Origin: a bacterium
GTDB taxonomy: Bacteria > Blakebacterota > Blakebacteria > Blakebacterales > Blakebacteraceae
NCBI GenBank assembly: GCA_025774615.1
Contig: JALGVQ010000029.1
Location: 1-26,953 of the forward strand
Direction: 5' to 3'
DNA length: 26,953 nucleotides
A program made the translations under genes and the position numbers. This document shows positions 4,724-19,596 of this stretch, piece after piece. The first letter of the stretch is position 1. The number at the start of each line of letters is the position of its first letter. The notes beneath the pieces were generated by a model, which saw only the letters and a program-made list of their open reading frames with translations, ran no database searches and was not told the origin of the DNA.

Positions 4724-5800
4724 CTACACCTGCTTTCGACGATAGGTCTCGACTTCCCACCCCTCGATGAATCTCCGGGCCCTGTCATCCATATATTCGA
4801 TTCCGCCGAAGACCCCGGCGAACTGAACCACGAGGGCGGCATCCCTTGCCACCTCCAGTGCCAGCTCCGCGGCGGTACTGCTCTCACCCAGGCCGAAGAC
4901 GGCGTCCTCGAAAACCGCGATCTTCGGATCGTAACCGTGACGGGAGAGGAATAGGGTGATCCCTTCAGCAGAGAACTTTCCCCGGATGGGACAGGCTCCG
5001 GCATAGACGATGTGATCGGGAGTGATCGGACCTTCGGCCGGAGAGAAGTGGCCGGATACGGCAAAATGCAGCGGGCTCTCACTCCAGGCGGAACGGATGA
5101 TCTCTTCATTCCGGGTGATACTCTCCCGCGGAGGTGCATCGCCCTGTTTGACCTCTCTCTGCACTCCTGCCCTCTGATACACATCCTCCAGGCACGCGAA
5201 GATCTCGCTGTAGGTGCCGGCGATCTGATCGGCTTCGTCCCCGGCCACAAAAACACCATGGTTCCCGATGAAGATCACGGATGGTTCGTACCCGCGGTGG
5301 CCCCGGTATGCCTCTACCTCTCGGCGCACCTCCATACAGAGTGAATAACCGGGGTCGGTATAATCGATCCAGAGAGCATCGGGGAAAAGGTGCCTGCTGT
5401 GGTGCGCTCCATTGACCGCACAGGTCATGCCGTTGACGATGGGCGGGTGTGTATGCACAACGAATCGTGCGGAGAGAGAATCGTGCAGGGGGGCCTCGAC
5501 TGAGGGGCGGCCGGTGGAGTCCGGCAGCACCGAGGCCTCAACGATCTCCATTACGGCCGCTTCCCGCTCGGGCACCTCAGACGGAAGTCCCGCTCTGTAG
5601 AGATTGGAGAGCCTGTTCCGGTCAAGGGCAACAAAATCTGCCGGCTCGATACCGGCAAGTGTTGTACCGGAGGGCTTCACCCGGAGTGTTTCCGGATCTT
5701 TGACTGAGGTGTTTCCACCCCCACCTCTGACATATCCGGGTATTCCGAATTCGTGCGAAAGGCGGGTGATGACCCGCAGCAGGTCTTCCGAGGATTCTAT
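4724..5800 (-). CDS. Class II aldolase, probable rhamnulose-1-phosphate aldolase, apparent AUA start
   Basis: It probably splits L-rhamnulose-1-phosphate into DHAP and L-lactaldehyde. Family marks are the phosphate-binding GGGGNTSVK (residues 26-34) and VKPSGTTLA (41-49), plus zinc-type histidines H116 and H118 in HTHP and H181 in GNHG, with an acidic residue near E103. A GTG at 5680 opens a 318-residue frame but would delete GGGGNTS, so it cannot be the true start. Upstream, the frame reads back to an ATA at 5798-5800 seven nt after GGAAGGAG and 17 nt after the permease stop. No ATG, GTG or TTG lies in frame between that site and GTG 5680. The resulting 358-residue protein begins ESSEDLLRVITRLSHEFG, a typical N-terminus. 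Unlike RhaEW-type fusions it carries no dehydrogenase domain. Fuculose or another sugar-phosphate substrate remains possible. Confidence 0.82.
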   Translation of the reverse strand: MESSEDLLRVITRLSHEFGIPGYVRGGGGNTSVKDPETLRVKPSGTTLAGIEPADFVALDRNRLSNLYRAGLPSEVPEREAAVMEIVEASVLPDSTGRPSVEAPLHDSLSARFVVHTHPPIVNGMTCAVNGAHHSRHLFPDALWIDYTDPGYSLCMEVRREVEAYRGHRGYEPSVIFIGNHGVFVAGDEADQIAGTYSEIFACLEDVYQRAGVQREVKQGDAPPRESITRNEEIIRSAWSESPLHFAVSGHFSPAEGPITPDHIVYAGACPIRGKFSAEGITLFLSRHGYDPKIAVFEDAVFGLGESSTAAELALEVARDAALVVQFAGVFGGIEYMDDRARRFIEGWEVETYRRKQV

Positions 5801-5817: not shown

Positions 5818-7008
5818 TCAGGTCAGGTGGATCTTTTCGGTCGTGATCCGCCCTGTCGGGCGACGGTGCCGGAGCTGGTCGAGCGCCACCGCTGCCACGA
5901 TGATCCCACCGGTGACGATCTCCTGGACCCAGTTATCGAGTCCGAGCCTGGTGCAGCCGTTATCCACCACCGTCATGATCAGCGCGCCCACCATCGTGCC
6001 CCGTATCGAACCCTCACCCCCGGAGAGACTTGCCCCCCCGATCACGACCGCGGCGATCACCCGAAGCTCGTACCCTTCAGCGGTGGTCGGATCACCCATG
6101 GAGAGATAGGAGAACTGCAGCAGTGCGGCCAACCCTGCGCAACCTATCCCGATGATATAGATCAGCATCTTGCTTCGGCCGATCCGTACGCCGCAGAGCC
6201 TGGCAGTCTGCTCGTTCGAGCCGATAGCGTAGATATGACGTCCGAACCGTGTGTAACGCAGCATCCCTGCCATCAGAAGCGCCACTACGAGGAGTATCCA
6301 GACTCCCGGCGCCACGATCGCTCCGAGCCCGCCTGAGGTGTTGGCCATGAGATCGGTGAGCCAGGTTGCCGAATCGGGGTAGACCGGCTGGTTGTTCCCC
6401 AGACCTTTGGCCAACCCGCGCAGGCCTCCCCACATACCCAGAGTCACAATGAAGGGGGCGATAGGTACGCGCTTGATGAAAAATTCATTCAGGGCCGCGA
6501 TCGCTCCGGCACCGGCCAATCCGGCCAGCAATGCCGGCACTGTTCCGAGTGGCCCGATCGTCCAGAGCACGATGAGCCCGCCCCCGATCAGGGCCGCGAC
6601 CCGACCAACGTGTCCGATGACCATCGCGCCGACGGCCGCGCCGCAGAGCATGCCTGCCCCTACTCCACCAAAGGCAGCCAGAATCGGTGGAAACCCGGCT
6701 TTGAGGAGCAGAGCTATCACAACCGTGCCCAGCGCGATGGTCGACCCGACCGAGAGATCGATTCCGCCGCTGATGATGATAATTGTTGCTCCAAGCGCGG
6801 CCGTCCCCACAACCGCGGTCTGCAGCAGCATCAGACGCTGGTTGTCCCAGCGGATGAAGTCGCCACCCATCAGGAGAGCAAAGAGACCCCATACGAAAAG
6901 CAGCCCGATGAGGGGGCCGAATTGTCCGATCAGGCGAGTGATATACGTCTTGTCCCGCAATCGGGACCCTCCATCGGTATCATTCACGCTGACGGTTCTC
7001 CTGATCAT
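5818..7008 (-). CDS. Sugar ABC transporter permease (RbsC-like)
   Basis: This is an inner-membrane channel subunit of a ribose/rhamnose-type sugar importer. It has 396 residues and about ten or more hydrophobic segments. RbsC-family marks are ISGGIDLSVGS (residues 80-90), PFIVTLGMWGGLRGLAKG (185-202), YAIGSNEQTARLCGVRIGRSK, and VVIGGASLSGGEGSIRGTMVGA near the C-terminus. The protein is longer than the usual 320-340. The extra length is mostly a hydrophobic segment around residues 130-170, before the NEFFIKRVPIAPF motif. The ATG overlaps the ATPase stop in an ATGA arrangement, so the two are translationally coupled. The aldolase starts 17 nt after its stop. Rhamnose is inferred as substrate from the neighbours; the sequence does not show specificity. 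Confidence 0.92.
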   Translation of the reverse strand: MIRRTVSVNDTDGGSRLRDKTYITRLIGQFGPLIGLLFVWGLFALLMGGDFIRWDNQRLMLLQTAVVGTAALGATIIIISGGIDLSVGSTIALGTVVIALLLKAGFPPILAAFGGVGAGMLCGAAVGAMVIGHVGRVAALIGGGLIVLWTIGPLGTVPALLAGLAGAGAIAALNEFFIKRVPIAPFIVTLGMWGGLRGLAKGLGNNQPVYPDSATWLTDLMANTSGGLGAIVAPGVWILLVVALLMAGMLRYTRFGRHIYAIGSNEQTARLCGVRIGRSKMLIYIIGIGCAGLAALLQFSYLSMGDPTTAEGYELRVIAAVVIGGASLSGGEGSIRGTMVGALIMTVVDNGCTRLGLDNWVQEIVTGGIIVAAVALDQLRHRRPTGRITTEKIHLT

Positions 7009-8555
7009 GCGGCTTCACCCGTTCCAGTGGACTCTGTTCCAGTGGCCTCCAACATGATGGCCTGTTCGTCCAGATCGGCGACCGGACGGGGAGGACCGAG
7101 CCGGCCGCGATGCATGACCGCGATGGAATCGCAGATTCCCAGCAGTTCAGGGAGGTAGCTCGAGACCACTACGATCGCGCGTGGAGCGATCCCGGCAACC
7201 TGATCACCACAGGCCAGGTCATCGATCAAACGGTAGATGAGCGCCTTTGAGCCCACATCGATCCCTCGCGTGGGTTCGTCGAGCAGCAGCACATCGGATC
7301 CGGTGTGAAGCAGGCGGGCAAGCGCGACCTTCTGCTGGTTTCCACCAGAAAGCGTAGCCACCTTCTGTCGCGGTGAAGAGCACCTGATCGGCAGGCGCTC
7401 TATCCATGGTTGAGCCGCCCTCTCCTGCCCGGCCGGGGTAACCAGACCCCAGGGACCGAGTCCATCGAGCCTCGGAAGAGTCAGATTGTCAGCCAGGCTC
7501 AGTCCGGCGGCCAGCCCTTCACGGCCGCGGTCTTCGCTCACCATGCCGGCGCCCAGCTGCCACATCATCGGCGGTGTGCTACACGGCACGTGGGATACCC
7601 GTACTGCACCCCGGCGGACCGGATCGAGGCCGAAGATCGACCTGATCAACTCGGTTCGACCAGATCCGACCAGTCCGGCGATACCCAGCACCTCGCCACG
7701 ATGGAGCGTGAAGGAGACAGCATGGGGAGAGGTGCTGCCCGAGAGACCGCGAACCTCAAGGACCTCTTCCCCCAGCACACGTTCGCCGCGGATATAAAGG
7801 TCATGGATATCACGACCTACCATGAGGGTGACGATCTCTTCGAGCTGCGTGTCCGCCGTAATCCCGCGCCCCGTCACCTGCCCGTCGCGCAATACCGTGA
7901 ACGTGTCGCTGATCTCCCTCACTTCCTCAAGCACATGGGAGATGTAGACAACTGCTATTCCCTCGGTCTGCAGACGTCTGACCAGATCGAAGAGGTGACC
8001 GATATCAGTGCGGGTCAGGCTTGAAGTTGGTTCATCGAGCACCAGTACGCGACATCCTGTCGCCACAGCTCGGGCTATCTCCACCAGTTGCTGTTCAGCG
8101 GCAGAGAGCCGACCGACCTGGAGATCAAGTGGGATGTCGGGGCGGCCGATCCGGCTCATCGCCGTGGCGGCGCGCTCCCGCACTTCCCCCCTTCGAACGA
8201 AAGGCCCGGTCACCGGTTCCCGACCCAGAAGGATGTTCTCGGCCACCGTGAGGTGAGGAGCCAGGGAGAGTTCCTGATAGATCATCGCTACACCGGCTGC
8301 GCGACCGTCGACCGGAGTGCGGGGAGCGTAGAGTACGCCGTCAAGCATCATGCGGCCCGCATCAGGCAGGAGCGCCCCCGACAGCACCTTCATCAGGGTG
8401 CTCTTGCCGGCACCATTCTCACCGATGAGAGCGTGCACTTCACTCGACTCGACGGTCAGGTCCACTCCGTCCAGGGCCACGGTCGCTCCAAAACTCCGGC
8501 GGACCGCCTCCATTCGCAGGCGTGGGCCGTGCACTGTTCCGGGAACCGGGTTCAC
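7005..8555 (-). CDS. Sugar ABC transporter ATPase with two nucleotide-binding domains (RbsA-like)
   Basis: This cytoplasmic energy subunit of the importer has 516 residues, as expected for RbsA/XylG/MglA-type proteins. The N-terminal domain has Walker A GENGAGKST (residues 45-53), a signature LSAAEQQLVEIARA and Walker B VLVLDEPTSSL. The C-terminal domain has the degenerate Walker A usual in this family (GLVGSGRTE), an intact LSGGNQQKVALARLL and VLLLDEPTRGIDVG. The start is GTG at 8555, four nt after GGAAGGA. The binding-protein stop lies only one base before this start, so translation of the two is likely coupled. Because the upstream binding-protein frame is broken, ribosomes would reach this start only if they re-initiate inside that gene or bind here directly. 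Confidence 0.93.
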   Translation of the reverse strand: MNPVPGTVHGPRLRMEAVRRSFGATVALDGVDLTVESSEVHALIGENGAGKSTLMKVLSGALLPDAGRMMLDGVLYAPRTPVDGRAAGVAMIYQELSLAPHLTVAENILLGREPVTGPFVRRGEVRERAATAMSRIGRPDIPLDLQVGRLSAAEQQLVEIARAVATGCRVLVLDEPTSSLTRTDIGHLFDLVRRLQTEGIAVVYISHVLEEVREISDTFTVLRDGQVTGRGITADTQLEEIVTLMVGRDIHDLYIRGERVLGEEVLEVRGLSGSTSPHAVSFTLHRGEVLGIAGLVGSGRTELIRSIFGLDPVRRGAVRVSHVPCSTPPMMWQLGAGMVSEDRGREGLAAGLSLADNLTLPRLDGLGPWGLVTPAGQERAAQPWIERLPIRCSSPRQKVATLSGGNQQKVALARLLHTGSDVLLLDEPTRGIDVGSKALIYRLIDDLACGDQVAGIAPRAIVVVSSYLPELLGICDSIAVMHRGRLGPPRPVADLDEQAIMLEATGTESTGTGEAA

Positions 8556-8556
8556 T

Positions 8557-9647
8557 TCATCCTTCCGGATTAATGAGTGCCTGAATGGCAGGTTCGTTCA
8601 GATTTTCGCGGGTCACCAGCGCTACACCGGTATCCACGACAGGCGGAACCGATTCACCACGCAGATGGCGCACCAGAGTGGTGACAGCTTCATAGCCCAT
8701 ACGGTCGGGATTCTGAACAACCAGAGCGTCTATCTCACCAGCTTCGAGTGCCTGTACAAGTGGAGGAGATGCGTCGAACCCCACGAAACGGATCTGTCCG
8801 GCGAGACCCTCCTGACGGAGCGCCAGCAACATCCCGTAGGTGGAGGGTTCATTGGAACAGAAGATACCCTCGGCCCGGCGGACCTGATCGAACATGTTCA
8901 GTGATTGAGTCTTGGCTTCACCGGCAGTGGGCCCGGCATAGCGGTTATCGACCAATACCTCGATCCCGTCACTCTCTCGCATAATCTCGAGGAATCCCTC
9001 CTCACGGGCGGCAGTGCTGGCCGAGCCTACCAGGTAGCGCAGGAGCACGACGCGGCCGTTCCCTCCGAGAAGTTCCAGCAGGTGCTCTCCTCCCAATCGA
9101 CCGCCGCTGGTATTGTCGGTGGCTACAAAACTCAGAAAATCCGTTCCCGGTTCACCTTCGAGGCTGGAATCCATGATCACCACCGGAATCCCTCTCCCGG
9201 TCGCCTGCCGACCGGAATCCCTCTCCCGGTCGCCTGCCGGACCGGGGCAACCAGGGCGCGCAGGTCGAGAGGTGCCAGAACAATGCCGTCCACACCCTGG
9301 GATATGAACTGCTGTACCACCTGGATCTGGTGGGCCCGATCGTTCTCCTTCAAAGGCCCCTTCCAGATGATCTCGACACCCTGTTCAGTACCTGCCCGTT
9401 TTGCGCCTGCTTCCACCGATTTCCAGAATACATGGGTCGTACCCTTCGGGATGACGGCAAGGGTCAGATCACTGGTAGTATCGGCCGCGCCTCCTGTTGT
9501 CTCACTTCCTCCTGCATCTCCGCGATCACTCCGGCCGCAGGCGGCACCGGAAAGCAGCATTGCAAAGATGAGGGCCAGAAATATTCTGTCGTGAAATCCC
9601 CGGTCGGCACCTCTGATCCCGGAACATCTCAGTGGATTCTCTGTCAT
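8557..9647 (-). pseudogene. Sugar-binding lipoprotein of the ABC importer, broken by a 29-bp duplication
   Basis: The upstream part starts at ATG 9647 (GAGGAG about 12 nt before). It has a lipoprotein signal with lipobox LSGAAC (Cys37), a Gly/Ser-rich linker, and RbsB-type sequence LAVIPKGTTHVFWKSVEAG and GVDGIVLAPLD. It then runs into a stop at 9177-9179. The remaining protein continues in another frame from about 9183 to 8557 (VIMDSSLEG, FVATDN, IFCSNEPSTYG, FVGFDASPP). At the junction a 29-bp unit occurs twice. Deleting one copy restores one frame reading GRGIPVVIMDSS, a normal RbsB-family hinge, and gives 353 residues. As written, no full-length exported binding protein can be made. A short cytoplasmic C-terminal fragment could come from re-initiation at GTG 9183. 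Either this is a real recent mutation or an assembly error. Confidence 0.88.
9182..9239. repeat. Exact 29-bp tandem duplication inside the binding-protein gene
   Basis: Positions 9182-9210 and 9211-9239 are identical over 29 bases (beginning ACCGGAATCC, ending CGCCTGCCG). A further ACCGG follows at 9241. Because 29 is not a multiple of three, the extra copy shifts the reading frame of the lipoprotein gene on the minus strand. Confidence 0.97.
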
Positions 9648-9776
9648 CGCGGAGGTTCGCTCCTCTGCTTGAGGTTCTGGCTGAACCGTGCGGTTCCCGC
9701 TCTTCTTGTTATAGCCGCCAGCGGGTCCGACTCCAACCTCCGCTTTTACCTCTCCCCGGATCACTGTCGACCTGCC

Positions 9777-9848: not shown

Positions 9849-9914
9849 ATGGTCATGGAAGTGGACAGGGAACGGGATATGGAAATGGACATGGCAAGGG
9901 ACAAAGGATCGGAA
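9849..9914. repeat. Degenerate hexanucleotide repeat (11 NNGGNN units)
   Basis: Eleven consecutive six-base units keep GG at positions 3-4 of nearly every unit, with the last units drifting (AAAGGA, TCGGAA). The plus strand is strongly purine-rich. It ends exactly at the PHP start codon. Confidence 0.7.
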
Positions 9915-9917
9915 TGA
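9849..9917 (+). CDS. Possible 22-residue leader peptide encoded by a degenerate hexanucleotide repeat
   Basis: An ATG at 9849 lies 10 nt after GGGGAGG (9832-9838), the best ribosome site in the region. It opens a 22-codon frame rich in Met, Glu, Asp, Arg and Lys, beginning MVMEVDRERD. The TGA at 9915-9917 overlaps the ATG of the PHP gene at 9914 in an ATGA arrangement. The DNA from 9849 to 9914 is eleven successive six-base units of the form NNGGNN (ATGGTC, ATGGAA, GTGGAC and so on). In the PHP frame the same DNA would encode alternating X-Gly (HGHGSGQGTG). Leader translation coupled to the PHP gene is plausible. A chance frame in a simple repeat is the main alternative. Confidence 0.4.
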   Translation: MVMEVDRERDMEMDMARDKGSE

Positions 9918-11284
9918 TGCCGGTTACCACACAGATAGTGGAACTCGAGAGGGATCTGAACAGTTTCGATCCCCTGGTACGCAGCCGGTCCTTCTCTGCC
10001 CTGCTGGCTCTGGCTGATGAGGGTGTGATCGAGTGCCGTCCATTCACCACCGCCTCGAACCTTCACTGTCATTCCTTCCATTCCTATAACGCATATGGTT
10101 TCTCCCCATCGGCCCTGGCCTGGATAGCCCGGCGGGAGGGCATCCGTTTGATGGGCATCGTGGATTTCGACCTCCTCGATGGTGTGGACGAGTTCATGGC
10201 AGCCTGTGAATCCGCGGGAGTGCACGCAACGGCGGGGATCGAAACGCGGGTCTGGCTGCCCGAACTCGCCGGCCAGGACATCAATTCTCCCGGCGAACCG
10301 GGAGTAGCCTATATGATGGGGATCGGCTTCACCTGTTCGCATCCCGTCGCATCGGCTCGACCGACGCTCGAGCTGCTGCACTCCGGGGCTCAGGATCGTA
10401 ACCGGAGCATTATCGAGCGTATCAATGCCCGGCTGCCGGAGTTGGCAATCGACTACAACCAGGATGTGTTATTGCTCTCCCCATCCGCTACGCCGACCGA
10501 ACGACATATCGTGCAGGCATACGCACTCCGGGCCGAAACGATCTTCCGGGATCCGGCCGCCGGATGGTCTGAGATGCTCGAGGATCCCTGTCCACCCGTT
10601 CCGGCCGGGACGACCGCCCGCGACCCCGATGTTCTGAAATGGCTTCGCTCCCGACTCGTCAAACAGGGGGGCATCGGTTACTCCAGACCCGGACCGGATA
10701 CCTTTCCGCCGGCTGACACCTTCATCCGCTTCGTGGAAGAGAGTTCTGCCCTGCCCTGCGCGGCCTGGCTCGACGGAACCTCTGAAGGTGAGCGTGATCC
10801 CGACCTGCTGCTCGACCTGCTCGTCACGATGGGGATCGTGGTCCTCAACGTGATCCCCGACCGCAACTGGAACTTCTCCGATCCTGAAGAGCGGGAAGAG
10901 AAGACCCGGAACCTGCATGCCATCATCACAGCCGCCAGGAAGCGGGGAATACCGGTCATCGCCGGGAGCGAGATGAATACACCGGGGCAGAAGCTCGTGG
11001 ATGAATTTAACTCGCCGGCCCTGGCTCCACTGCGACAGACATTCACCGACGGCGCCTGGTTCGTCCGGGGACACACGGTCATGCAGCACGCGGCCGGAAT
11101 GGGATGGTGGAGCGACTGGGCCGTTCACCATCTGCTTGAGCGGGCAGACCGGATCTCCTTCTTCACCCTTCTGGGACGAAGCACCCCATCCGGTCAGGCT
11201 GGTCGGAAGTGCCTCGAAGGGCTCGACAAGGATCTCGATCCCGCCGGGGTGCTGGCCCGGATCAGCGACGGGAGGAACAAGTGA
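9914..11284 (+). CDS. PHP-domain-like protein, first gene of the plus-strand operon
   Basis: I chose ATG 9914, with AAAGGA 5 nt upstream, giving 456 residues. A GTG at 9830 would add an X-Gly repeat tail and has no ribosome site. PHP-type features are HCHS at residues 51-54 (the family's HxH), GIVDFD (82-87), GIET (108-111), and IAGSEMN toward the C-terminus, where the family usually has GSD/E. The second motif is unusual: the canonical TDH-type His is replaced by Phe (D84-F85-D86), so metal binding may differ. PHP proteins are mostly metal-dependent phosphoesterases, and a sugar-phosphate phosphatase or lyase-like role in this operon is conceivable but unproven. The stop overlaps the next start (TGATG), so expression is coupled to the dehydrogenase. 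Confidence 0.6.
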   Translation: MMPVTTQIVELERDLNSFDPLVRSRSFSALLALADEGVIECRPFTTASNLHCHSFHSYNAYGFSPSALAWIARREGIRLMGIVDFDLLDGVDEFMAACESAGVHATAGIETRVWLPELAGQDINSPGEPGVAYMMGIGFTCSHPVASARPTLELLHSGAQDRNRSIIERINARLPELAIDYNQDVLLLSPSATPTERHIVQAYALRAETIFRDPAAGWSEMLEDPCPPVPAGTTARDPDVLKWLRSRLVKQGGIGYSRPGPDTFPPADTFIRFVEESSALPCAAWLDGTSEGERDPDLLLDLLVTMGIVVLNVIPDRNWNFSDPEEREEKTRNLHAIITAARKRGIPVIAGSEMNTPGQKLVDEFNSPALAPLRQTFTDGAWFVRGHTVMQHAAGMGWWSDWAVHHLLERADRISFFTLLGRSTPSGQAGRKCLEGLDKDLDPAGVLARISDGRNK

Positions 11285-13032
11285 TGGAGGATCGATATCG
11301 GGCCTGGGTCCTCGGACAGTCCCCCCTGCCCGCTACCTGCCGCCGCTGGCCGCTCTACGGTGCCGGATTCGAAAACCTCGGCCGGGACGAACAATCGATC
11401 AATGTTCCCCTGCCGGAACCGGATTCCGGTGAACTGCTCGTGCGACACGACGCCTGCGGCCTCTGTTTCTCAGACACCAAGGTCATCGGGGCGGGTGAAG
11501 ACCATCCCCGGATATACCGGGACATGAGAAGCGATCCGGTCATACTCGGTCATGAAGTGAGCCTGACGGTGATGGCGGTCGGAGAGGGACTCGAGGACCG
11601 GTACCAGATCGGAGATCGCTTCACCCTCCAGGCCGATATCTTCGTCGACGGGGTCGGATACGCGTATGGCTACGAGATCGATGGCGGGCTTTCCGAGTAC
11701 GCTCTGCTTGACTCACGAGTGCTCGACGGCGATGACGGGTGCTATCTGATCCCCGTACAGTCCTCGACCGGGTATGCCGAAGCCGCACTGACCGAACCAT
11801 GGGCCTGCGTTGTTGCCACATACGGACTGCGCTACCGGACCACGCTCAGGAATGGCGGCACGACCTGGATCCATGGCACCGACCGAACGATGGAATCGGG
11901 TTACGAGATCAGCCATGGACTCGATCACGCTTCCGCCCCTGCCCGCATCCTGCTCACCGATCTCCCGGCAGCATTCACCGATACGCTCAGGGAGCGGGCT
12001 TCGGTCCTCGGAATCGAGGTCACCACCACCGATGAGCAACCGGTCGTGGCCCATGAGAGTGTCGACGACATCATACTGCTCGGCGCCGATGCCGATCTGG
12101 TCGAGCGGCTCAGTCCGGCCCTGGCTCATGGCGGGATCATGGCGGTTATCGATTCTGAACCGCTCCTGCGGCCGGTGGCGCTCGACATCGGCCGGATACA
12201 CTACAACCGATGGCTCTTCATCGGCGGACCCGGTCCCGATCCGGCTGCAGTCCATGCTGATCGACCGGTACGCTCGGAACTCAAAGCTGGAGGACGGGCC
12301 CTCTTCATCGGAGCCGGGGGGCCGATGGGACGCATGCACGTGCAGCGGGCTCTCTCGCTCGCGCAGGGGCCGTCAGTGATAGTCGCCACTGATGTGAACG
12401 CTTCCCGCCTGGCAGACCTGAAGCGTTTGCTGACCGGGGATGCGGCCGCACACGAAGTGACACTCCTCTGTCTCGATCCGAACGACCGGGCAACGTATGA
12501 AGCCGGTCTCGAGCAGGCCATGAACCGTTCCCCGGTATCAGGAGGCGGAAGCGAATCGGGCTTCGACGACATCATCGTGCTGGCCCCGGTACCCCGCCTG
12601 GTCGAGGAGGCAGCATTCCTCCTGGCACCGGACGGGGTCATGAACATCTTCGCCGGCGTCCCCCGCGGCACAACTGCGGCCGTGGATCTGAGTGACGCCT
12701 GGCTCAGAGGCACCCGGATCATCGGACACTCGGCATCGACCATCGAAGATATGCGGCTGACGCTCGAACGCACTGAGACCGGCGTTCTCGACCCCGGACG
12801 TTCGGTGGCTGCGATCGGCAGCCTCGAAGCGGCGAAGGAGGGGCTCACAGCGGTTCGCGACGGCCGCTTCACCGGAAAGATCATCATCTATCCCCACATC
12901 CATCCCTTCCCTCTGACTCCCCTCTCCGAACTGGCCGGGCTGATGCCGGAAGTATCCGCCCTGCTGCGTGATGGTCGGGAGTGGACGGTGGCGGCGGAAC
13001 GGGAATTCCTGAAACGGATGCTGCGGGTATGA
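11284..13032 (+). CDS. Zinc-type medium-chain dehydrogenase with an extra Rossmann-like region
   Basis: This 582-residue protein starts at an ATG that overlaps the previous stop (TGATG). The N-terminal GroES-like domain has probable catalytic zinc ligands C61 (CGLCFSD), H90-E91 (ILGHE) and E171 (TEPWACV), as in polyol dehydrogenases. The structural-zinc four-Cys lobe is absent. A cofactor fold is expected after about residue 185, but two regions follow. The first (about 200-330; ILLTDLPAAF, DIILLGADADLVERLSPALAHGG) looks Rossmann-like but lacks a clear glycine motif. The second carries FIGAGGPMGRMHVQRA near residue 340, followed by ATDVN. Typical relatives such as L-sorbose-1-phosphate reductase are about 410 residues. 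With the SrlD-like neighbour, oxidation or reduction of a sugar or polyol phosphate is the likely role; the substrate is unknown. Confidence 0.75.
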   Translation: MEDRYRAWVLGQSPLPATCRRWPLYGAGFENLGRDEQSINVPLPEPDSGELLVRHDACGLCFSDTKVIGAGEDHPRIYRDMRSDPVILGHEVSLTVMAVGEGLEDRYQIGDRFTLQADIFVDGVGYAYGYEIDGGLSEYALLDSRVLDGDDGCYLIPVQSSTGYAEAALTEPWACVVATYGLRYRTTLRNGGTTWIHGTDRTMESGYEISHGLDHASAPARILLTDLPAAFTDTLRERASVLGIEVTTTDEQPVVAHESVDDIILLGADADLVERLSPALAHGGIMAVIDSEPLLRPVALDIGRIHYNRWLFIGGPGPDPAAVHADRPVRSELKAGGRALFIGAGGPMGRMHVQRALSLAQGPSVIVATDVNASRLADLKRLLTGDAAAHEVTLLCLDPNDRATYEAGLEQAMNRSPVSGGGSESGFDDIIVLAPVPRLVEEAAFLLAPDGVMNIFAGVPRGTTAAVDLSDAWLRGTRIIGHSASTIEDMRLTLERTETGVLDPGRSVAAIGSLEAAKEGLTAVRDGRFTGKIIIYPHIHPFPLTPLSELAGLMPEVSALLRDGREWTVAAEREFLKRMLRV

Positions 13033-13072
13033 GCGGGCACAAAAGCCTCCATCCCCGGCAGGAGGAGTACGA

Positions 13073-13912
13073 ATGAGCGGATCATCGACCTCGAGCATGA
13101 ACGGAAACGTCAACAGCGACGGAGGGAAAGGCATCGATGGCCGCGTTGCGCTCGTCACGGGCGCGGCGCAGGGACTCGGCGAAGCGATCGCGCGCCATCT
13201 GGCCGCTGAAGGCTTCGCCGTTGCCGTGGCCGACCTCGACGCCGACGGGGCTGGGCGCGTTGCCGGTGAGATCTCCGGAAAGACCGGCCGGCCCACAATG
13301 GGGATCGGGGTCGATGTGACCGACGAGGCTGAAGTGACGGTTATGATCGAGCGCACCGTCGCCGGGCTCGGCGGTCTCGACCTGCTCGTCTCCAATGCCG
13401 GCATCCTCATCGCCGGCCCGGTGGAAGAGTTCGCTGCTGAGCAATGGCAGGCGGTCATGAACGTCAATCTCTTCGGCTACTTCCTCAGCGCAAAGGCGGC
13501 GGCACAGATCATGATCGAGCAGGGAAGCGGAGTGATCATCCAGGTCAATTCCAAATCGGGGAAGAAGGGCAGCTATCGCAACTCGGCGTATGCCGCCTCG
13601 AAGTTCGGCGGCATCGGACTGACCCAGAGCCTTGCCCTCGAACTGGCCGAACACGGCATCCGGGTCAACGCGGTCTGTCCCGGCAATCTGCTCGACTCCC
13701 CCCTCTGGACCGACTCCCTCTACGGCCAGTACGCCGAACGCTGGGGGATCACCGAGGCCGAGGTCCGGCAGCAGTACATCGATCAGGTTCCGCTCAAGAG
13801 GGGCTGCGCCTATGAAGACGTCTGCCGGGTGATCACCTTCCTCGCATCAGACGGTGCCGCTTACATGACTGGACAGGCCGTGAACGTAACCGGTGGACAG
13901 GAGATGCGCTGA
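13073..13912 (+). CDS. Short-chain dehydrogenase resembling sorbitol-6-phosphate 2-dehydrogenase
   Basis: This cytoplasmic NAD(P)-dependent SDR has 279 residues and an AGGAGG-type ribosome site before ATG 13073. The cofactor motif TGAAQGLG is at 29-36, NAG at 108-110, and the catalytic set is S160, Y173 and K177. From memory the stretch NSKSGKKGSYRNSAYAASKF, then GGIGLTQSLALELAEHGI, and later YIDQVPLKRG and TGQAVNVTGGQ follow E. coli SrlD closely. That suggests a phosphorylated polyol or ketose substrate. About 20 polar Ser/Gly/Asn residues precede the fold. In many bacteria the rhamnulose-phosphate aldolase is fused to an SDR that handles lactaldehyde; here both domains exist but in separate operons. 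So lactaldehyde is a second candidate substrate. The stop overlaps the kinase start (TGATG). Confidence 0.8.
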   Translation: MSGSSTSSMNGNVNSDGGKGIDGRVALVTGAAQGLGEAIARHLAAEGFAVAVADLDADGAGRVAGEISGKTGRPTMGIGVDVTDEAEVTVMIERTVAGLGGLDLLVSNAGILIAGPVEEFAAEQWQAVMNVNLFGYFLSAKAAAQIMIEQGSGVIIQVNSKSGKKGSYRNSAYAASKFGGIGLTQSLALELAEHGIRVNAVCPGNLLDSPLWTDSLYGQYAERWGITEAEVRQQYIDQVPLKRGCAYEDVCRVITFLASDGAAYMTGQAVNVTGGQEMR

Positions 13913-15417
13913 TGCAGGGAACCGCAGACACGTACCTGGCCTGTGATCTGGGTGCCGAGAGCGGACGCATCGTGGCCGGCACGATCGGAGATGGCCGCCT
14001 CGAACTCGAAGAAATCCACCGCTTCCCCAACGGACCGGTAGAACAGGATGGGACCCTGCGCTGGCACATCGACAGCATATGGCGTGAGATCGTGGCCGGC
14101 CTCACAGCAGCGGGCGAACGATATGGCGACCGGCTCGCCGGCGTCGGTGTGGACACCTGGGGTGTGGACTTCGGTCTGCTCGACGGTGACGACTCACTGA
14201 TCGAAGACCCCTGGCACTACCGCGACGCCCGTACGAACGGCGTGATGGATACAGCCTTCAGCATCATCGATCGAGCCGACATATTCGCCCGGACCGGCAT
14301 CCAGTTCATGCAGCTCAATACCCTGTTCCAGCTCCTGGCCATGGTACACACCGGCTCCGAATCCCTGCGCCGGGCTGAGCGCCTGCTCTTCATGCCCGAT
14401 CTCATCACCTGGATGCTCTCGGGTCGGAAGGTGAACGAATTCACCATCGCCACCACGAGCCAGTGTTACGATCCCCTCAATGAATCGTGGGCATATGGGA
14501 TACTCGAGCAGATGGAGATCCCGACCGGGATCTTCGGCCCGATCGTGTCGCCGGGAACGATCGTGGGTGAACTGCTGCCCGAGGTGGCCGCCGCCACCGC
14601 CTGCGGCGCTCTGCCGGTCATCGCGCCCGGTTCCCACGACACCGCCTCGGCTGTGGCGGCAGTGCCGTTCACCTCCGGTAACGCCATCTTCCTGAGTTCG
14701 GGCACCTGGTCGCTCATGGGAGTCGAAGTCACTGAACCGGTCATCACCGAACTGAGCCTTGAACACAATATGACCAATGAGGGTGGCGTCGGGGGCTGCT
14801 TCAGGCTGCTGAAGAACATCATGGGACTCTGGCTGGTGCAGGAGTGCCGGCGGGAGTGGACACGGGAGGGTCGGGAGTGGTCATACGACGAGCTTACGGC
14901 CCTTGCGTCTGAATCACCCCCCTTCGGCCCCCTCGTCGATCCCGGCGATGATCGTTTCCTGCACCCCGGCGATATGCCCTCCCGAATGCGTGCGTTCTGT
15001 CGCGAGACGGGTCAGCCTGAACCGGTGGATGAGGGATCGCTCGTGCGCTGCGCGCTCGAGAGTCTGGCATGTGAGTACCGCCGGGTGGCAGACATCCTGA
15101 CTGAACTCACCGGCCGGACGGCTGACACCATCCACATCATCGGCGGGGGATGCAGGAACCGGCTGCTGAACCGGCTTACTGCCGATGCCACCGGGCGACG
15201 AGTCCTCGCCGGCCCGGCTGAAGCCACCGCCATGGGCAATATCATCGTCCAGGCGATCGCCCGGGGCGAGATCGCCTCGCTGGCTGAGGGACGGGCCCTG
15301 GTCAGTGACTCGGTCGAACCCGTGGAATACGAACCGGAGCCGAATGCGGCCTGGGACGAAACGTATGAACGCTACCTCACCATCAGAGACCAACATCAGA
15401 CAGGAACCAGAGTATGA
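13912..15417 (+). CDS. rhaB: Rhamnulokinase (FGGY family)
   Basis: It phosphorylates L-rhamnulose at O1 using ATP, feeding the aldolase encoded in the divergent operon. The protein has 501 residues. The N-terminal phosphate-binding segment DLGAESGR (12-19) is the variant characteristic of rhamnulokinases. Also present are DTWGVDFGLLD near 80-90, HYRDARTNG, QFMQLNTLFQL, PGSHDTASAV, SSGTWSLMGVE, TNEGGVGG and the C-terminal IHIIGGGCRNRLLN adenosine-site motif. The ATG overlaps the SDR stop, and its own stop overlaps the E1 start (ATGA), so it sits in the middle of a coupled operon. Together with rhaA this strongly supports a rhamnose-type pathway. A related 6-deoxyketohexose is the only realistic alternative substrate. 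Confidence 0.93.
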   Translation: MQGTADTYLACDLGAESGRIVAGTIGDGRLELEEIHRFPNGPVEQDGTLRWHIDSIWREIVAGLTAAGERYGDRLAGVGVDTWGVDFGLLDGDDSLIEDPWHYRDARTNGVMDTAFSIIDRADIFARTGIQFMQLNTLFQLLAMVHTGSESLRRAERLLFMPDLITWMLSGRKVNEFTIATTSQCYDPLNESWAYGILEQMEIPTGIFGPIVSPGTIVGELLPEVAAATACGALPVIAPGSHDTASAVAAVPFTSGNAIFLSSGTWSLMGVEVTEPVITELSLEHNMTNEGGVGGCFRLLKNIMGLWLVQECRREWTREGREWSYDELTALASESPPFGPLVDPGDDRFLHPGDMPSRMRAFCRETGQPEPVDEGSLVRCALESLACEYRRVADILTELTGRTADTIHIIGGGCRNRLLNRLTADATGRRVLAGPAEATAMGNIIVQAIARGEIASLAEGRALVSDSVEPVEYEPEPNAAWDETYERYLTIRDQHQTGTRV

Positions 15418-17489
15418 CCGGGAAGACATCAGAGGGAGTAGTGGCCTCGCATGGACTCACACGCGACGGAGCTCTCGAGCTGCTGCGGCAGATGTGGGAG
15501 ATCCGCATGTTCGAGGATCGGGTCTACGATCTGCTCGGACGCAACATCATCAAGGGTGCCTCACACCTCTATGCCGGGCAGGAGGCGGTTGCCGTCGGAG
15601 CGATCTCAGCCCTCAGGGATGATGATCTCATAACCAGCACCCACCGCGGCCACGGGCATTGTCACGCCCGGGGGGTGAGTCTGGTGGTCAGCGACGAGGA
15701 GCGGCAGGACCACTACAACCGGATGATGGCCGAACTCTGCGGCCGCGAAACAGGATACTGTCGGGGCCGTGGAGGCTCGATGCACATCGCTGACGTCGAG
15801 CGCGGCAATCTGGGAGCCACCGGTATCGTGGGGGGGAACATCCCCGTGGCCACCGGGGCCGGGATCGCCCAGCAGCAACACGATTCCGATCGCGTGGTTC
15901 TCTGCTTCTTCGGCGATGGAGCCACCAGTACCGGCAACTTCCACGAGTCGCTTAACCTGGCCGGACTCTGGAGACTGCCGGTCGTCTATATCATCGAGAA
16001 CAACCTCTACGGCATGTCGGTACCTCTTTCGTCGGCCGCCGCCCTGACAGCGCTCTCGGAACGTGCCGGTGCCTATAATATGCCCGGTGAGGTCGTCGAC
16101 GGCATGGATGTGCTCGAGGTACGGGCCGCTGTCAGGCGCGCCGTGGAACGGGCTCGGGCCGGTGATGGACCCTCACTGATCGAGTGCCGGACCTACCGCT
16201 GGTACGGCCACTCCCGCTCTGACCCGCGCGCCTACCGCACCCGCGAGGAGGAAGCTGAGTGGAAGAGCCGCGATCCGATCCCGAATTTCTCAGCCTGGCT
16301 GACCGAGAACGCGATCGTCCCGCAGGATGAGATCGAAGCTCTGGAGACCCGATGCGAGCAGGCGATCGAGAGCGCCACCGAATTCGCCCTGACCTCCCCC
16401 CTGCCCTCCCCCGACGAGGTCGAGGCAGACGTCTACGCTCCCTCGATCTGGACCAGCGATGATTACACCACCGAGAAACGCCTGCGGGATCTCTGCGGGG
16501 AGGAGAATGCAGAAGTGCGCACCATCCTCTACCGCGATGCCCTGCAGGAAGCCCTGCGCGAGGAGATGGAGCGGGACGAACGGGTCTTCGTGATGGGAGA
16601 GGATGTGGGCCTCTACGGCGGGGCCTACGGTGCCACCAAGGGACTCTTCGATTCATTCGGTCCCGGGCGGGTGATGGACACTCCGATCTCGGAAGCGACC
16701 ATCGGCGGCTCGGCGGTCGGGGCCGCCATGGCCGGCTGCCGCCCTGTGGCCGAGATCATGTACGTCGATTTCACCCCCCTGGCCATGGACCAGATCGCCA
16801 ATCAGGGAGCTAAGAACCGGTACATGTTCGGCGGCAAGACGACTGTACCGATGGTCATCCGCACCGAAGGCGGGGCCGGACGCTGCATCGCCGCTCATCA
16901 CTCCCAGAGCCTCGAAGCCCTCTGGACCCACTTCCCCGGCATCCATGTTGTGATGCCCGCTACTCCCTTCGACGCCAAGGGCCTGCTCAAGGCGGCCATC
17001 CGCGATGACAACCCGGTCATGTTCATAGAGCACAAGATGCTCTACGGGCTCAAAGGACCAGTGCCCGAAGAGGAATACCTGATCCCCTTCGGAGTGGCTG
17101 ACATCAAGCGCTCCGGTGATGACGTGACGGTTGTGACCTGGTCGCGCATGGTCCACCGGGCACTTGAAGCAGCCGACAGGTTGGCCGCTGAGGGCATCTC
17201 GATCGAGGTGATCGACCTGCGAACCCTCAAACCGCTCGACATGGAGACTATCGCCTCCTCAGTGAAAAGGACCGGCCGGATCGTGGGGGTGACCGAGGCC
17301 TGTCGGACCGGATCGTTCCTCTCCGAGATTTCAGCCCGCGTCTCCGAGGAGCTTTTCGATTACCTCGACGCACCCGTTGTGCGCGTGGCGGCCGCTGATG
17401 TCCCCGTGCCGATGTCTGAGTCGCTCGAGGATGCCGCCATTCCGGGTATTGAATCCGTGATCGCCGGCATCAGGGAGGTCCTCCGATGA
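15414..17489 (+). CDS. 2-oxoacid dehydrogenase E1, alpha and beta subunits fused
   Basis: This thiamine-diphosphate decarboxylase component of a 2-oxoacid dehydrogenase complex has 691 residues. Residues 1 to about 345 are the alpha part, with HRGHGHCHARG and the ThDP/Mg motif GDGATSTGNFHESLNLAG ending in ENN. A linker near 345-365 leads into the beta part, from about 367, with FVMGEDVGLYGGAYGATKGL, TPISEATIGGSAVGAAMAG and IDLRTLKPLD. Separate alpha and beta genes are the common arrangement; fused forms are known. Pyruvate, acetoin or branched-chain keto acids are all possible substrates and cannot be separated by eye. Being coupled to rhamnulokinase (ATGA) and to E2 (ATGA) suggests a sugar-specific role, for instance handling a three-carbon product of the aldolase. 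Confidence 0.9.
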   Translation: MTGKTSEGVVASHGLTRDGALELLRQMWEIRMFEDRVYDLLGRNIIKGASHLYAGQEAVAVGAISALRDDDLITSTHRGHGHCHARGVSLVVSDEERQDHYNRMMAELCGRETGYCRGRGGSMHIADVERGNLGATGIVGGNIPVATGAGIAQQQHDSDRVVLCFFGDGATSTGNFHESLNLAGLWRLPVVYIIENNLYGMSVPLSSAAALTALSERAGAYNMPGEVVDGMDVLEVRAAVRRAVERARAGDGPSLIECRTYRWYGHSRSDPRAYRTREEEAEWKSRDPIPNFSAWLTENAIVPQDEIEALETRCEQAIESATEFALTSPLPSPDEVEADVYAPSIWTSDDYTTEKRLRDLCGEENAEVRTILYRDALQEALREEMERDERVFVMGEDVGLYGGAYGATKGLFDSFGPGRVMDTPISEATIGGSAVGAAMAGCRPVAEIMYVDFTPLAMDQIANQGAKNRYMFGGKTTVPMVIRTEGGAGRCIAAHHSQSLEALWTHFPGIHVVMPATPFDAKGLLKAAIRDDNPVMFIEHKMLYGLKGPVPEEEYLIPFGVADIKRSGDDVTVVTWSRMVHRALEAADRLAAEGISIEVIDLRTLKPLDMETIASSVKRTGRIVGVTEACRTGSFLSEISARVSEELFDYLDAPVVRVAAADVPVPMSESLEDAAIPGIESVIAGIREVLR

Positions 17490-18835
17490 TCAGTGAAGTC
17501 ATCATGCCGAAGCTGGGGCAGACCATGGAAGAAGGCCGGGTCGTGGAGTGGTACCTGGCCGAGGGGGATGAAGTGAAGCGGGGGGACCTGCTCTACACCC
17601 TGGAATCGGACAAGGCCTCTCTCGACGTCGAAGCCACTGGCCGGGGCTGGTTGCGGAAGATAGTTATCGATGAAGATGAAGTCGTGCCGGTACTCACCGT
17701 GGTAGCTCTGATCACTACCGATGCCGATGAGTCGATCGAAGCCTGGAGCCCGACGCCGGTGGAACCGGGAACCGGGATCGAGACCGCGTCACCGGACGTT
17801 ACCGCCACACCAGCCGGAACTGAACCGCCGGCAGCTGCCGTCGACTCTGCCCCATCCATCGACTCCACGGGAACTTCTTCCTCTCCCGGCCGCCTCATCG
17901 CCTCTCCCCGTGCCCGCCGCCTGGCCGCAGACCGCGGCGTCGATCTCACCCCGGTCACCGGATCGGGGCCCGGGGGGCGGATCGTGGAAGCCGATGTCCT
18001 CGTTGCCGCGGCAGGTGTCCCTGATACCGGGGCCAGAGGGGACGGCTATCCTCGCGCAGATCTTCCGGTGACCGAGACCATCCCGCTGACCGGCCTGCGC
18101 GGCATCATCTCCGAGCGTATGACACTGAGCGCCCGCACGATCCCCCAGGTCACCCTGACGACCGAGGTGGATGCCTTCAATCTGCGGGAAGCGCGGCAGC
18201 GACTCAGGAGCGTTGAACCGGAGTGGGGGTTCGCCCCCGGTTATACCGAGCTGATCGCGTTCCTCACGGTACGGGCGCTGGCTGAACATCCTGGCCTGAA
18301 TGCCCGTCTGAGTGCCGACCATCAGGCGATCGAGATGCTTGCTCCTGTCAACCTGGGTGTGGCCACTGATACCGAACGGGGTCTGATGGTGCCGGTCATC
18401 ACCAGCGCCGAGTCGATGGACCTGCGGACCTTCACCACCCGGGCCCGAGAGCTCATCACCCGCGCCCTGGAGGGTACCGCGCTTCCCGACGATCTGGCGG
18501 GCGGCACCTTCACCGTCACCAGTCTGGGTGCGTTCGGGATCGACGCATTCACACCACTCATCAACCCACCCGAGGCAGCGATCATGGGAATAGGACGCAT
18601 CAGGGAGAAACCGGTCGTGACCCCCGACGGGATATCCACCAGACCACTACTGACCCTGAGTCTGGTGTTCGATCACCGGATCGTGGACGGGGCCCCGGCG
18701 GCCCGATTCCTCCAACGCACGGGTGAACTCATCGAAAACCCGGATACCGTATTCGACGGGATCTTCCCCGATGTCATCGGAAAAGACATCAGCAGTGACA
18801 TCGGCAGTGATACCAGCGGCGAGGCAATCACATGA
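17486..18835 (+). CDS. Dihydrolipoyl acyltransferase E2 of the same complex
   Basis: It moves the acyl group from E1 to CoA via lipoate. The 449-residue protein has one lipoyl domain with the lipoylated lysine K43 in LESDKAS. A Pro/Thr/Ala-rich linker (about 85-130) follows, then a peripheral-subunit-binding domain (ASPRARRLAADRGVDLTPVTGSGPGGRIVEADV, roughly 135-170). The catalytic domain contains SLVFDHRIVDG with H397 and D401. All three functional parts are therefore present and complete. No E3 (dihydrolipoamide dehydrogenase) gene is in the window, so the complex must use one encoded elsewhere. The start overlaps the E1 stop and the stop overlaps the DeoR start, both as ATGA. Confidence 0.92.
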   Translation: MISEVIMPKLGQTMEEGRVVEWYLAEGDEVKRGDLLYTLESDKASLDVEATGRGWLRKIVIDEDEVVPVLTVVALITTDADESIEAWSPTPVEPGTGIETASPDVTATPAGTEPPAAAVDSAPSIDSTGTSSSPGRLIASPRARRLAADRGVDLTPVTGSGPGGRIVEADVLVAAAGVPDTGARGDGYPRADLPVTETIPLTGLRGIISERMTLSARTIPQVTLTTEVDAFNLREARQRLRSVEPEWGFAPGYTELIAFLTVRALAEHPGLNARLSADHQAIEMLAPVNLGVATDTERGLMVPVITSAESMDLRTFTTRARELITRALEGTALPDDLAGGTFTVTSLGAFGIDAFTPLINPPEAAIMGIGRIREKPVVTPDGISTRPLLTLSLVFDHRIVDGAPAARFLQRTGELIENPDTVFDGIFPDVIGKDISSDIGSDTSGEAIT

Positions 18836-19596
18836 AGAACGGCATGCTTCCCGTCGAACGGCATCGTGAGATCATTAATAGCGTTGAATCTGCCGGCAGC
18901 GTACGGACCATCGAACTGGCTCGTGCGTTGAGCGTGGCTGAGGAAACCATCCGCCGCGATCTGGAGAGACTCGATTCCGAAGGCCGGCTCGTTCGGATCC
19001 ATGGAGGAGCCGTGCGCGTATCGGGCGAACACCGGGAGATACCCTTCGATGTGCGTGAAGTGGTGAATCTGAAGCAGAAACGGGCAATGGCACTGACAGC
19101 GATCGAATATGTAAGAGAGGGTGATGTGATCGCGCTCGATGCCAGTTCGACTGTGCGTGAGCTCGCCCGGCTCATTCCCGACAGACCCCTTACTGTTGTC
19201 ACCAATTCTATCGCGGTGACAACCACACTGCTCGATCGTACCAGGGTCCGGGTTGTCTCCACCGGCGGCACCCTCGATGGCCCCTCCCTCTCCTATACCG
19301 GCACCCTGGCCGAGGAGGCCCTGGAGCGTTTTGCCATCAGCCGCACCTTCCTCTCGTGCACCGCCCTCGATATCGAACGGGGGCTGGCCGTGGCCACCGA
19401 GGAACACGCCCGGATCAAGCGTCGCATGATGCAGCTCGCCGACGAGGTCATTCTGCTCGTCGATACCTCGAAGTTTTCTGCTCAGGGAGTCGAGTTCTTC
19501 GCTGCTCCTGAAGAGGTGGACCTGCTCATCACCGACGGAGGAACAGACAGAGCCTCACTGCAGGCATTGAAGAAACGCGGGATTACTGTCCGATAG
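18832..19596 (+). CDS. DeoR-family transcriptional regulator
   Basis: This 254-residue regulator is the last gene of the plus-strand operon. The N-terminal winged helix-turn-helix is clear: HREIINSVESAGSV, then LSVAEETIRRDLERLDSEGRLVRIHGGA, about residues 10-60. The C-terminal sugar-phosphate sensor domain shows DASSTVRELARLI, VVTNS, VSTGGTL and the late VDTSKF motif usual in the family. DeoR proteins generally repress sugar operons and release DNA on binding a phosphorylated intermediate; here rhamnulose-1-phosphate or DHAP would be natural signals. The probable target is the divergent promoter region near 9783-9816, which would give co-control of both operons plus autoregulation. Neither ligand nor operator is shown by the sequence. 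Confidence 0.9.
   Translation: MKNGMLPVERHREIINSVESAGSVRTIELARALSVAEETIRRDLERLDSEGRLVRIHGGAVRVSGEHREIPFDVREVVNLKQKRAMALTAIEYVREGDVIALDASSTVRELARLIPDRPLTVVTNSIAVTTTLLDRTRVRVVSTGGTLDGPSLSYTGTLAEEALERFAISRTFLSCTALDIERGLAVATEEHARIKRRMMQLADEVILLVDTSKFSAQGVEFFAAPEEVDLLITDGGTDRASLQALKKRGITVR

Follow-up and report, generated by a model that had tools for sequence, protein, structure and literature searches.

A rhamnulokinase-type operon with a fused E1, an E2 and hexitol-phosphate-type dehydrogenases: a tentative route from 6-deoxyhexoses to acetyl-CoA

The stretch of DNA analysed here, referred to as the window, comprises 26,953 nucleotides of contig JALGVQ010000029.1 (assembly GCA_025774615.1) from a member of the Blakebacteraceae and harbors two divergent operons encoding the following proteins:

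3412..4683, minus strand: L-rhamnose isomerase RhaA (divergent operon)
about 4724..5800, minus strand: class II aldolase, similar to the RhaE aldolase domain, without the SDR half (divergent operon)
5818..7008, minus strand: permease of a sugar ABC transporter (divergent operon)
7005..8555, minus strand: ATPase of a sugar ABC transporter, AraG/XylG/RbsA type (divergent operon)
8557..9764, minus strand: sugar-binding protein (divergent operon)
9914..11284, plus strand: PHP-domain protein, 456 aa
11284..13032, plus strand: SorE-like (L-sorbose-1-phosphate reductase-like) zinc-dependent MDR, 582 aa
13073..13912, plus strand: SrlD/SorD-like SDR of the sorbitol-6-phosphate dehydrogenase family
13912..15417, plus strand: FGGY kinase of the rhamnulokinase type
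15414..17489, plus strand: fused E1 alpha-beta of the TPP-dependent 2-oxoacid/acetoin dehydrogenase type, 691 aa
17486..18835, plus strand: E2 with a lipoyl domain (DKA), an E3-binding domain and an acyltransferase domain (HRIVDG)
18832..19596, plus strand: DeoR-family regulator

An earlier, sequence-only reading had described positions 9914-19596 as an operon for a PHP protein, two dehydrogenases, a rhamnulokinase, a fused E1 and an E2, and all of these genes were found again; the DeoR regulator at 18832-19596, which closes the operon, was missing from its title. Likewise, the pathway core is indeed split between divergent operons, with the genes of RhaA, the aldolase and the sugar ABC transporter on the minus strand facing the kinase operon. 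The gene of the sugar-binding protein consists of two ORFs, broken at a short tandem duplication. On the plus strand, the PHP/SorE and SrlD/kinase genes overlap by 1 nt, while the kinase/E1, E1/E2 and E2/DeoR overlaps measure 4 nt each. The proposed linkage by overlaps of 1-4 nt thus applies to SrlD-kinase and kinase-E1-E2 but not to the junction of SorE and SrlD, which is a gap of 40 nt.

With respect to the rhamnose-side enzymes, RhaA passes curated cut-offs (682 bits, cut-off 572; TIGR01748, 650 bits, cut-off 585). The kinase reaches 480 bits against TIGR02627, by far its top family match, which is just below the cut-off of 528. The aldolase resembles the RhaE aldolase domain at 59 bits, far under the cut-offs for full-length RhaEW, and no second class II aldolase turned up in its genome. 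Such an enzyme is present in 27 of the 27 genomes tested, usually within the same locus, and its family (Ald2) keeps the aldolase-type Glu as well as the phosphate-binding residues; hence, lactaldehyde and DHAP can probably be made. Since this conserved Glu is aldolase-like and not the Asp of AraD-type epimerases, a function as an AraD-type 4-epimerase, which would lead to D-erythrose-4-P as product, is not supported. No gene for a lactaldehyde dehydrogenase or reductase (AldA, RhaW, FucO, RhaZ) occurs in the window, and no Fe-ADH of the FucO type was found in the genome, which encodes seven aldehyde dehydrogenase matches elsewhere that could handle lactaldehyde.

The SorE-like MDR matches annotated SorE proteins of Klebsiella, Citrobacter and Serratia at 28-31% over both halves, in line with the resemblance to sorbose-phosphate reductase recognized before, and its zinc-site residues C61, H90, E91 and E171 are conserved, while about 150 additional residues separate the two MDR halves. 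Its structure model displays an MDR fold whose relatives include ketose reductases among others. The protein is a candidate ketose-1-phosphate reductase. The neighboring SDR, earlier compared with SrlD, passes the curated sorbitol-6-phosphate dehydrogenase cut-off (PRK12384, 361.5 bits, cut-off 307), has the sorbitol-6-phosphate dehydrogenase 5o3z as its best solved relative, and is a candidate hexitol-phosphate oxidase. The PHP protein, whose metal ligands (HxH, D84, D86, E110, H198, H387) are kept in homologues, is by structure probably a phosphoesterase of the RNase AM/nucleoside bisphosphatase type (AlphaFold pLDDT 88; nearest solved folds, the PHP phosphoesterases 3o0f and 2yb1 and RNase AM); its gene is optional in the SorE-SrlD-E1-E2 module. 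Anaerolineae also have stand-alone DeoR-E1-E2 operons, in which a regulator of the same DeoR family as that of the window comes ahead of E1-E2.

The fused E1 counts pyruvate dehydrogenase (PDH) E1 models among its best family matches and the E2 resembles PDH E2. Nonetheless, E1 alpha stays under the PDH cut-off of TIGR03182 (358.7 vs 393.85 bits). The E2 does not belong to the AcoC family (PRK14875, 86 bits, cut-off 307); acetoin neighbors (AcoX, butanediol dehydrogenase) are absent from the window. In the E1 tree, the window E1 groups with E1s linked to DRL (DXR-II-like) or PTS genes (UFBoot 100), separate from the PDH pair of its own genome and Bacillus (UFBoot 100) and away from BCKDH, too. 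It is placed on the acetoin-type side, although the split of all non-PDH/BCKDH E1s received a UFBoot of only 74. The closest relatives include alphaproteobacterial E1s, to which a DRL gene adjoins in 32 of 33 plasmid records, in one case together with RpiB and a PTS of the sorbitol type; SorE-SrlD itself adjoins at least three E1 lineages. DXR-II acts on 1-deoxyxylulose-5-phosphate (DXP) (PMC3847144), and because aceE mutants of E. coli make DXP, a 1-deoxyketose phosphate (PMC3424233), 1-deoxyketose-phosphate chemistry lies within reach of E1 enzymes. The possibility that E1-E2 represents the only general PDH of the organism, which would have refuted the sequence-only reading, is ruled out by another complete PDH with E3 that is encoded apart from the window operon. 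The dedicated 2-oxoacid-dehydrogenase-type complex is the novel part of the operon, as the earlier reading had stated.

The neighborhood, moreover, is not confined to one genome. The gene order of the window is present in three family members, and the order SorE-SrlD-RhaB-E1-E2 is seen again in Chloroflexota (locus L161), which renders the arrangement more than chance. Sediments, sludge and hot springs are rich in Chloroflexota, many of which carry the neighborhood: SorE-SrlD adjoins RhaA, RhaI or FucI, a kinase, E1-E2 and sometimes E3, the latter inside or beside the operon in loci L161, L163, L171 and L172. By sequence, these isomerases are bona fide RhaA, RhaI and FucI. The kinase slot is occupied by RhaB or a PfkB hexose kinase, with RhaB in this slot in L161, L163 and L165, and MtlD is added in several loci. 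Three families of hexitol-phosphate dehydrogenases (SorE, SrlD, MtlD) thereby point to hexitol-phosphates. Of 297 Anaerolineae-class genomes, 46 contain both a fused E1 and SorE (odds ratio 9.5, kinship ignored), and in 18 genomes the two lie at most 10 kb apart. On the other hand, core loci lacking the fused E1 occur in 28 of 60 genomes with type I SorE, and 17 genomes contain E1 without SorE.

The recurrence of the same gene set in rhamnose and fucose clusters of Chloroflexota suggests an undescribed breakdown of deoxy-sugars straight to acetyl-CoA; the literature searched yielded no description of such a SorE-SrlD-E1-E2 deoxy-sugar pathway. With a probability of roughly 0.45, the operon encodes a route for 6-deoxyhexoses, L-rhamnose here and L-fucose in relatives, that bypasses lactaldehyde and ends in acetyl-CoA. 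According to their family assignment, RhaA and RhaB would make L-rhamnulose-1-phosphate, whose C2 ketone may be reduced by SorE to a 6-deoxyhexitol-1-phosphate. SrlD would then oxidize the far carbinol (C5) to a ketone beside the methyl group, giving a 1-deoxyketohexose-6-phosphate. This putative ketone shift is modelled on the way in which SorE and SorD are known to turn L-sorbose-1-P, through glucitol-6-P, into fructose-6-P. Carrying the acetoin motif CH3-CO-CHOH-R, the predicted product could be split by the fused E1 on TPP into hydroxyethyl-TPP and a tetrose-4-phosphate, after which E2 would hand the acetyl moiety on to CoA, with NADH being formed and the PDH operon supplying the E3. DeoR would sense a sugar phosphate, PHP might act as an accessory phosphoesterase, and the class II aldolase may provide a parallel classical branch or act on some intermediate. 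Stereochemistry worked out by hand predicts D-threose-4-P (or L-erythrose-4-P) as product unless a C4 epimerase acts; no tetrose-phosphate gene is present in the window. That this combination of ketone shift and acetoin-dehydrogenase-like cleavage to acetyl-CoA and tetrose-phosphate serves both rhamnose and fucose, in Chloroflexota and in this lineage, is proposed tentatively, at somewhat less than even odds. The tree position of E1 beside DRL-linked E1s, the co-occurrence of fused E1 and SorE, the conserved SorE-SrlD-kinase-E1-E2 order, the linkage to RhaA, RhaI or FucI, the three families of hexitol-phosphate dehydrogenases, the E3 in or next to some of the operons, the missing FucO-type Fe-ADH and the separate PDH with E3 count for the route, while the aldolase in all 27 genomes tested, the predicted tetrose-phosphate with no matching gene in the window, the core loci lacking fused E1, the E1 genomes lacking SorE and the seven aldehyde dehydrogenase matches count against it.

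The nearly constant presence of the aldolase would also suit a classical route with a new ending, in which aldolase cleavage of rhamnulose-1-P yields L-lactaldehyde besides DHAP, with the SDR/MDR enzymes and E1-E2 taking lactaldehyde on to acetyl-CoA, e.g. via methylglyoxal or lactate and pyruvate. L-lactaldehyde arises from rhamnose and fucose alike, and in Chloroflexus lactaldehyde is oxidized by an SDR, RhaW (PMC3870299). The window SDR, however, belongs to the sorbitol-6-phosphate dehydrogenase family and not to RhaW (361 vs 181 bits), SorE, MtlD and PfkB as partners would stay unexplained, and locus L106 (FucI-PHP-SorE-SrlD-E1-E2) is adjoined by neither aldolase nor kinase, just as the operon of L161 is devoid of an aldolase. 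We therefore regard this ending as unlikely. A passage from lactaldehyde to acyl-CoA had been one of two earlier suggestions and is less well supported than the phosphorylated-hexitol route because of the recurrent hexitol-phosphate dehydrogenase partners and the lack of a lactaldehyde dehydrogenase/reductase gene in the window. The other suggestion, that rhamnose enzymes have been recruited for a different deoxy-sugar or polyol, comes near to the reading preferred here, genuine RhaA, RhaI and FucI being present in these operons. The earlier interpretation is thus partly supported, and the locus, with SorE, SrlD and E1-E2 and with no lactaldehyde dehydrogenase or reductase, is indeed not a standard rhamnose operon.

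Alternatively, a single regulon could unite two pathways, with rhamnose degraded in the ordinary way and SorE-SrlD-E1-E2 serving some other ketose or polyol set free from the same polysaccharides. Rhamnose and fucose genes are commonly missing from SorE-SrlD loci (e.g. E1long-AP2epimerase-MtlD-like loci), Deinococcus sp. AJ005 features SDR-SorE-FGGY kinase without E1, and several clusters carry RhaD plus a second aldolase. Yet the window kinase sits between SrlD and E1 with overlaps of 1-4 nt, the same slot holds RhaB in three Chloroflexota loci, and several RhaI or FucI operons contain no second isomerase, so that a shared regulon appears rather doubtful. Finally, the resemblance of E1 and E2 to PDH components would agree with a mere second PDH that provides extra flux within a sugar operon, but in view of the complete PDH encoded elsewhere, the position of E1 in the tree and the sub-threshold E1 alpha score this is highly improbable.

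In comparison with known systems, the locus shares an isomerase, a rhamnulokinase-type kinase, a class II aldolase and a sugar ABC importer with the phosphorylated L-rhamnose pathway (RhaA/RhaI, RhaB, RhaD or RhaEW; PMC3870299), whereas SorE, SrlD and E1-E2 take the place of lactaldehyde dehydrogenase/reductase. The L-sorbose pathway of the Klebsiella sor operon likewise combines a SorE-like reductase with an SDR of the sorbitol-6-phosphate dehydrogenase family, but the window lacks the sorbose PTS, its 582-aa SorE bears an insertion, and RhaA/RhaB and E1-E2 are the neighbors. The rhamnose and fucose pathways known so far lead to lactaldehyde (and DHAP) or, if nonphosphorylated, to 2-keto-3-deoxy acids; the preferred route, if true, would constitute a new direct path to acetyl-CoA that avoids a toxic aldehyde and the loss of propanediol. 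The window complex resembles the acetoin dehydrogenase complex (AcoABC) in that its E1 lies on the acetoin-type side of the tree and that it is predicted to split CH3-CO-CHOH-R into an aldehyde and acetyl-CoA, but it differs by its fused E1 alpha/beta, its non-AcoC E2, the lack of acetoin/butanediol genes and its sugar-phosphate neighbors. The DRL-E1alpha-E1beta-E2 clusters on alphaproteobacterial plasmids, for whose function no description was found in the literature searched, contain the sister E1 clade next to a polyol- or deoxyketose-phosphate enzyme; their E1 is unfused, however, and DRL plus a PTS or ABC transporter replace SorE/SrlD/RhaB. DXP synthase and the DXP-making E. coli aceE mutants (PMC3424233) perform the same hydroxyethyl-TPP and aldose-phosphate chemistry in the reverse direction, yet with a biosynthetic C5 product and no lipoyl transfer to CoA. 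Databases name the E1 proteins of the window's clade pyruvate or acetoin dehydrogenase; if the proposed route is true, 1-deoxyketose phosphates would be the physiological substrate class of this clade of 'alpha-ketoacid dehydrogenase' E1s, and the wider clade would represent 1-deoxyketose-phosphate dehydrogenases, among them enzymes with which alphaproteobacteria catabolize DXP or methylerythritol phosphate.

The window represents an entire contig (G000:C282) of a draft genome that is 82% complete, and harbors the following genes, in which SorE and SrlD denote L-sorbose-1-phosphate reductase-like and sorbitol-6-phosphate dehydrogenase-like proteins, respectively:

9914-19596, plus strand: PHP protein, SorE-like zinc dehydrogenase, SrlD-like SDR, rhamnulokinase-type kinase, fused E1 alpha-beta, E2, DeoR regulator
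Minus strand: L-rhamnose isomerase, exceeding both curated cut-offs
Minus strand: RhaE-type class II aldolase, SDR half missing
Minus strand: sugar ABC transporter
306-3350, minus strand: GH123-like protein (1014 aa), matching GH123_N along its whole length (1404 bits) and adjoining rhaA

Within 9914-19596, junctions measure 1 nt (PHP/SorE, SrlD/kinase) or 4 nt (kinase/E1, E1/E2, E2/DeoR), with a 40-nt gap between SorE and SrlD. As read from the sequence, the fused E1 features the GDG...NN motif for TPP and, in its E1 beta portion, the conserved His, and E2 the lipoyl DKA motif and HRIVDG, while no E3 gene lies within the window. The GH123-like protein may be the source of the sugar. Moreover, a sugar-binding-protein gene is broken into two ORFs at a ~29 bp tandem duplication (9177-9260), perhaps by an assembly error or recent frameshift; an open frame at 5680-5800 lacks ATG, GTG or TTG before the aldolase's conserved N-terminus; and an ORF of 643 aa (24978-26909) has no Pfam match.

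The concern of the sequence-only reading that this neighborhood might be confined to one genome was dispelled by a gene-neighborhood search: the gene order recurs in three family members, one deposited as Candidatus Zixiibacteriota, and SorE-E1 loci occur across Chloroflexota. Genome contigs were scanned with a SorE alignment (491 relatives), and the best 80 of these 491 were nearly all Chloroflexota. After gene calling, the best loci comprised SrlD in 71 of 79, PHP in 56, E1 in 32 and E2 in 24, and many of the 79 also contained RhaB, RhaA, RhaI or class II aldolases. L-fucose isomerase, far over its cut-off, was found in loci L106, L061 and L171, and in L106 directly 5' of PHP-SorE-SrlD-E1-E2. 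Among 297 sampled genomes of the class Anaerolineae, 98 carried SorE, 63 fused E1 (identity of 62% or more) and 46 both (odds ratio 9.5, p 1.6e-13, uncorrected for phylogeny); in 18 genomes the two lie at most 10 kb apart, forming compact operons:

L160, L164, L168, L170: DeoR-RhaI-aldolase-SorE-SrlD-(MtlD)-PfkB kinase-E1-E2-DUF4432
L161: RhaI-SorE-SrlD-RhaB-E1-E2, E3 adjoining, aldolase absent; SorE-to-E2 order as in the window
L167: RhaA-aldolase-RhaB-PHP-SorE-SrlD-MtlD-E1-E2
L172: like L167, plus E3

E1-E2 unlinked to SorE commonly forms its own DeoR-E1-E2 operon. Since the E1s adjoining SorE-SrlD belong to no fewer than three separate lineages (fused, long fused, unfused), this arrangement argues for a functional tie between them. 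Seven loci (L066, L073, L083, L084, L086, L089, L095) encode a very divergent long fused E1 (~820 aa) and E2 together with an AP_endonuc_2 isomerase/epimerase, PHP, SorE, SrlD and an MtlD-like dehydrogenase, are devoid of rhamnose genes, and probably perform the same chemistry on a different sugar. In L096 (3117-16828) and L109 (3035-16635), a RuBisCO-like protein (PF00016) is located near unfused E1-E2, aldolase, PHP, SorE and SrlD; both loci also hold a second, fused E1-E2.

The SorE/SorD pair shifts a ketone, converting L-sorbose-1-P via glucitol-6-P to fructose-6-P. By analogy, we propose a 6-deoxyhexose route to acetyl-CoA that avoids lactaldehyde: SorE/SrlD would act on L-rhamnulose-1-P or L-fuculose-1-P, which carry the methyl group at the far end, and yield a 1-deoxyketohexose-6-phosphate. 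This alpha-hydroxy methyl ketone resembles acetoin, and the acetoin-type E1-E2 would cleave it to acetyl-CoA and a tetrose-4-phosphate. Stereochemistry, worked out by hand, gives D-threose-4-P from both rhamnose and fucose, barring an epimerase.

For ALTERNATIVES, three less probable alternatives were weighed: that the pathway ends via lactaldehyde, that a separate polyol pathway shares the regulation, or that E1-E2 is a second PDH. Bearing on the first is the class II aldolase, which is present with aldolase-type residues in 27 of 27 genomes tested and which, like the PHP protein, the proposed ketone-shift route leaves unaccounted for. A second PDH is the least likely of the three. That E1-E2 might be the organism's only general pyruvate dehydrogenase, a reservation of the sequence-only reading, is contradicted by a separate cluster in its own genome comprising a second E1 alpha (one part at an end of contig C31, the other at an end of C284), E1 beta, E2, E3 and lipoate ligase. 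Trees built on concatenated alpha and beta sequences pair this separate PDH with Bacillus PDH (UFBoot 100) and place the window E1 among the fused E1s, a distinct clade (UFBoot 88) whose nearest relatives (UFBoot 100) are a Clostridioides PTS-operon E1 and alphaproteobacterial plasmid E1s. The window E1-E2 is not the housekeeping PDH.

Independent support for the proposed cleavage of a 1-deoxyketose-phosphate by E1-E2 derives from this sister clade: of 33 alphaproteobacterial plasmid records whose E1 alpha is at least 65% identical to that of Terrarubrum, 32 have a gene for a DXR-II-like protein (DRL, PF21135) directly adjoining E1. DXR-II acts on 1-deoxyxylulose-5-phosphate (DXP), and its clade lists Sinorhizobium fredii NGR234 (PMC3847144), one of these plasmid records, whose listed protein we assume to be the E1-adjacent DRL. 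Mutants of E. coli PDH E1 make DXP (PMC3424233). The DRL-E1alpha-E1beta-E2 cassettes on the Terrarubrum (L127:6592-11259; accompanied by a glucitol-type PTS and RpiB) and Aminobacter (L128:7589-12323) plasmids suggest methylerythritol or 1-deoxyxylulose catabolism via DXP to acetyl-CoA and glyceraldehyde-3-P. On a Shinella plasmid (L129:8950-17490), another sugar-linked complex is encoded by E1alpha-E1beta-transaldolase/FSA-like-E2-E3, accompanied by genes for a phosphatase and a homologue of triose-phosphate isomerase. In Clostridioides difficile (NZ_CP149674; L182:1-5494), generically annotated E1-E2-E3 genes adjoin a PTS, a class II aldolase-family protein and lipoate ligase.

Rhamnose pathway variants described so far include RhaEW in Chloroflexi, and the portions of that account consulted make no mention of SorE, SrlD or E1-E2 among them (PMC3870299). 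Within the open-access literature, to which the search was confined, no description of such a pathway was found. The enzymes belong to known families; what is new, as far as could be checked, is their combination and the proposed route.
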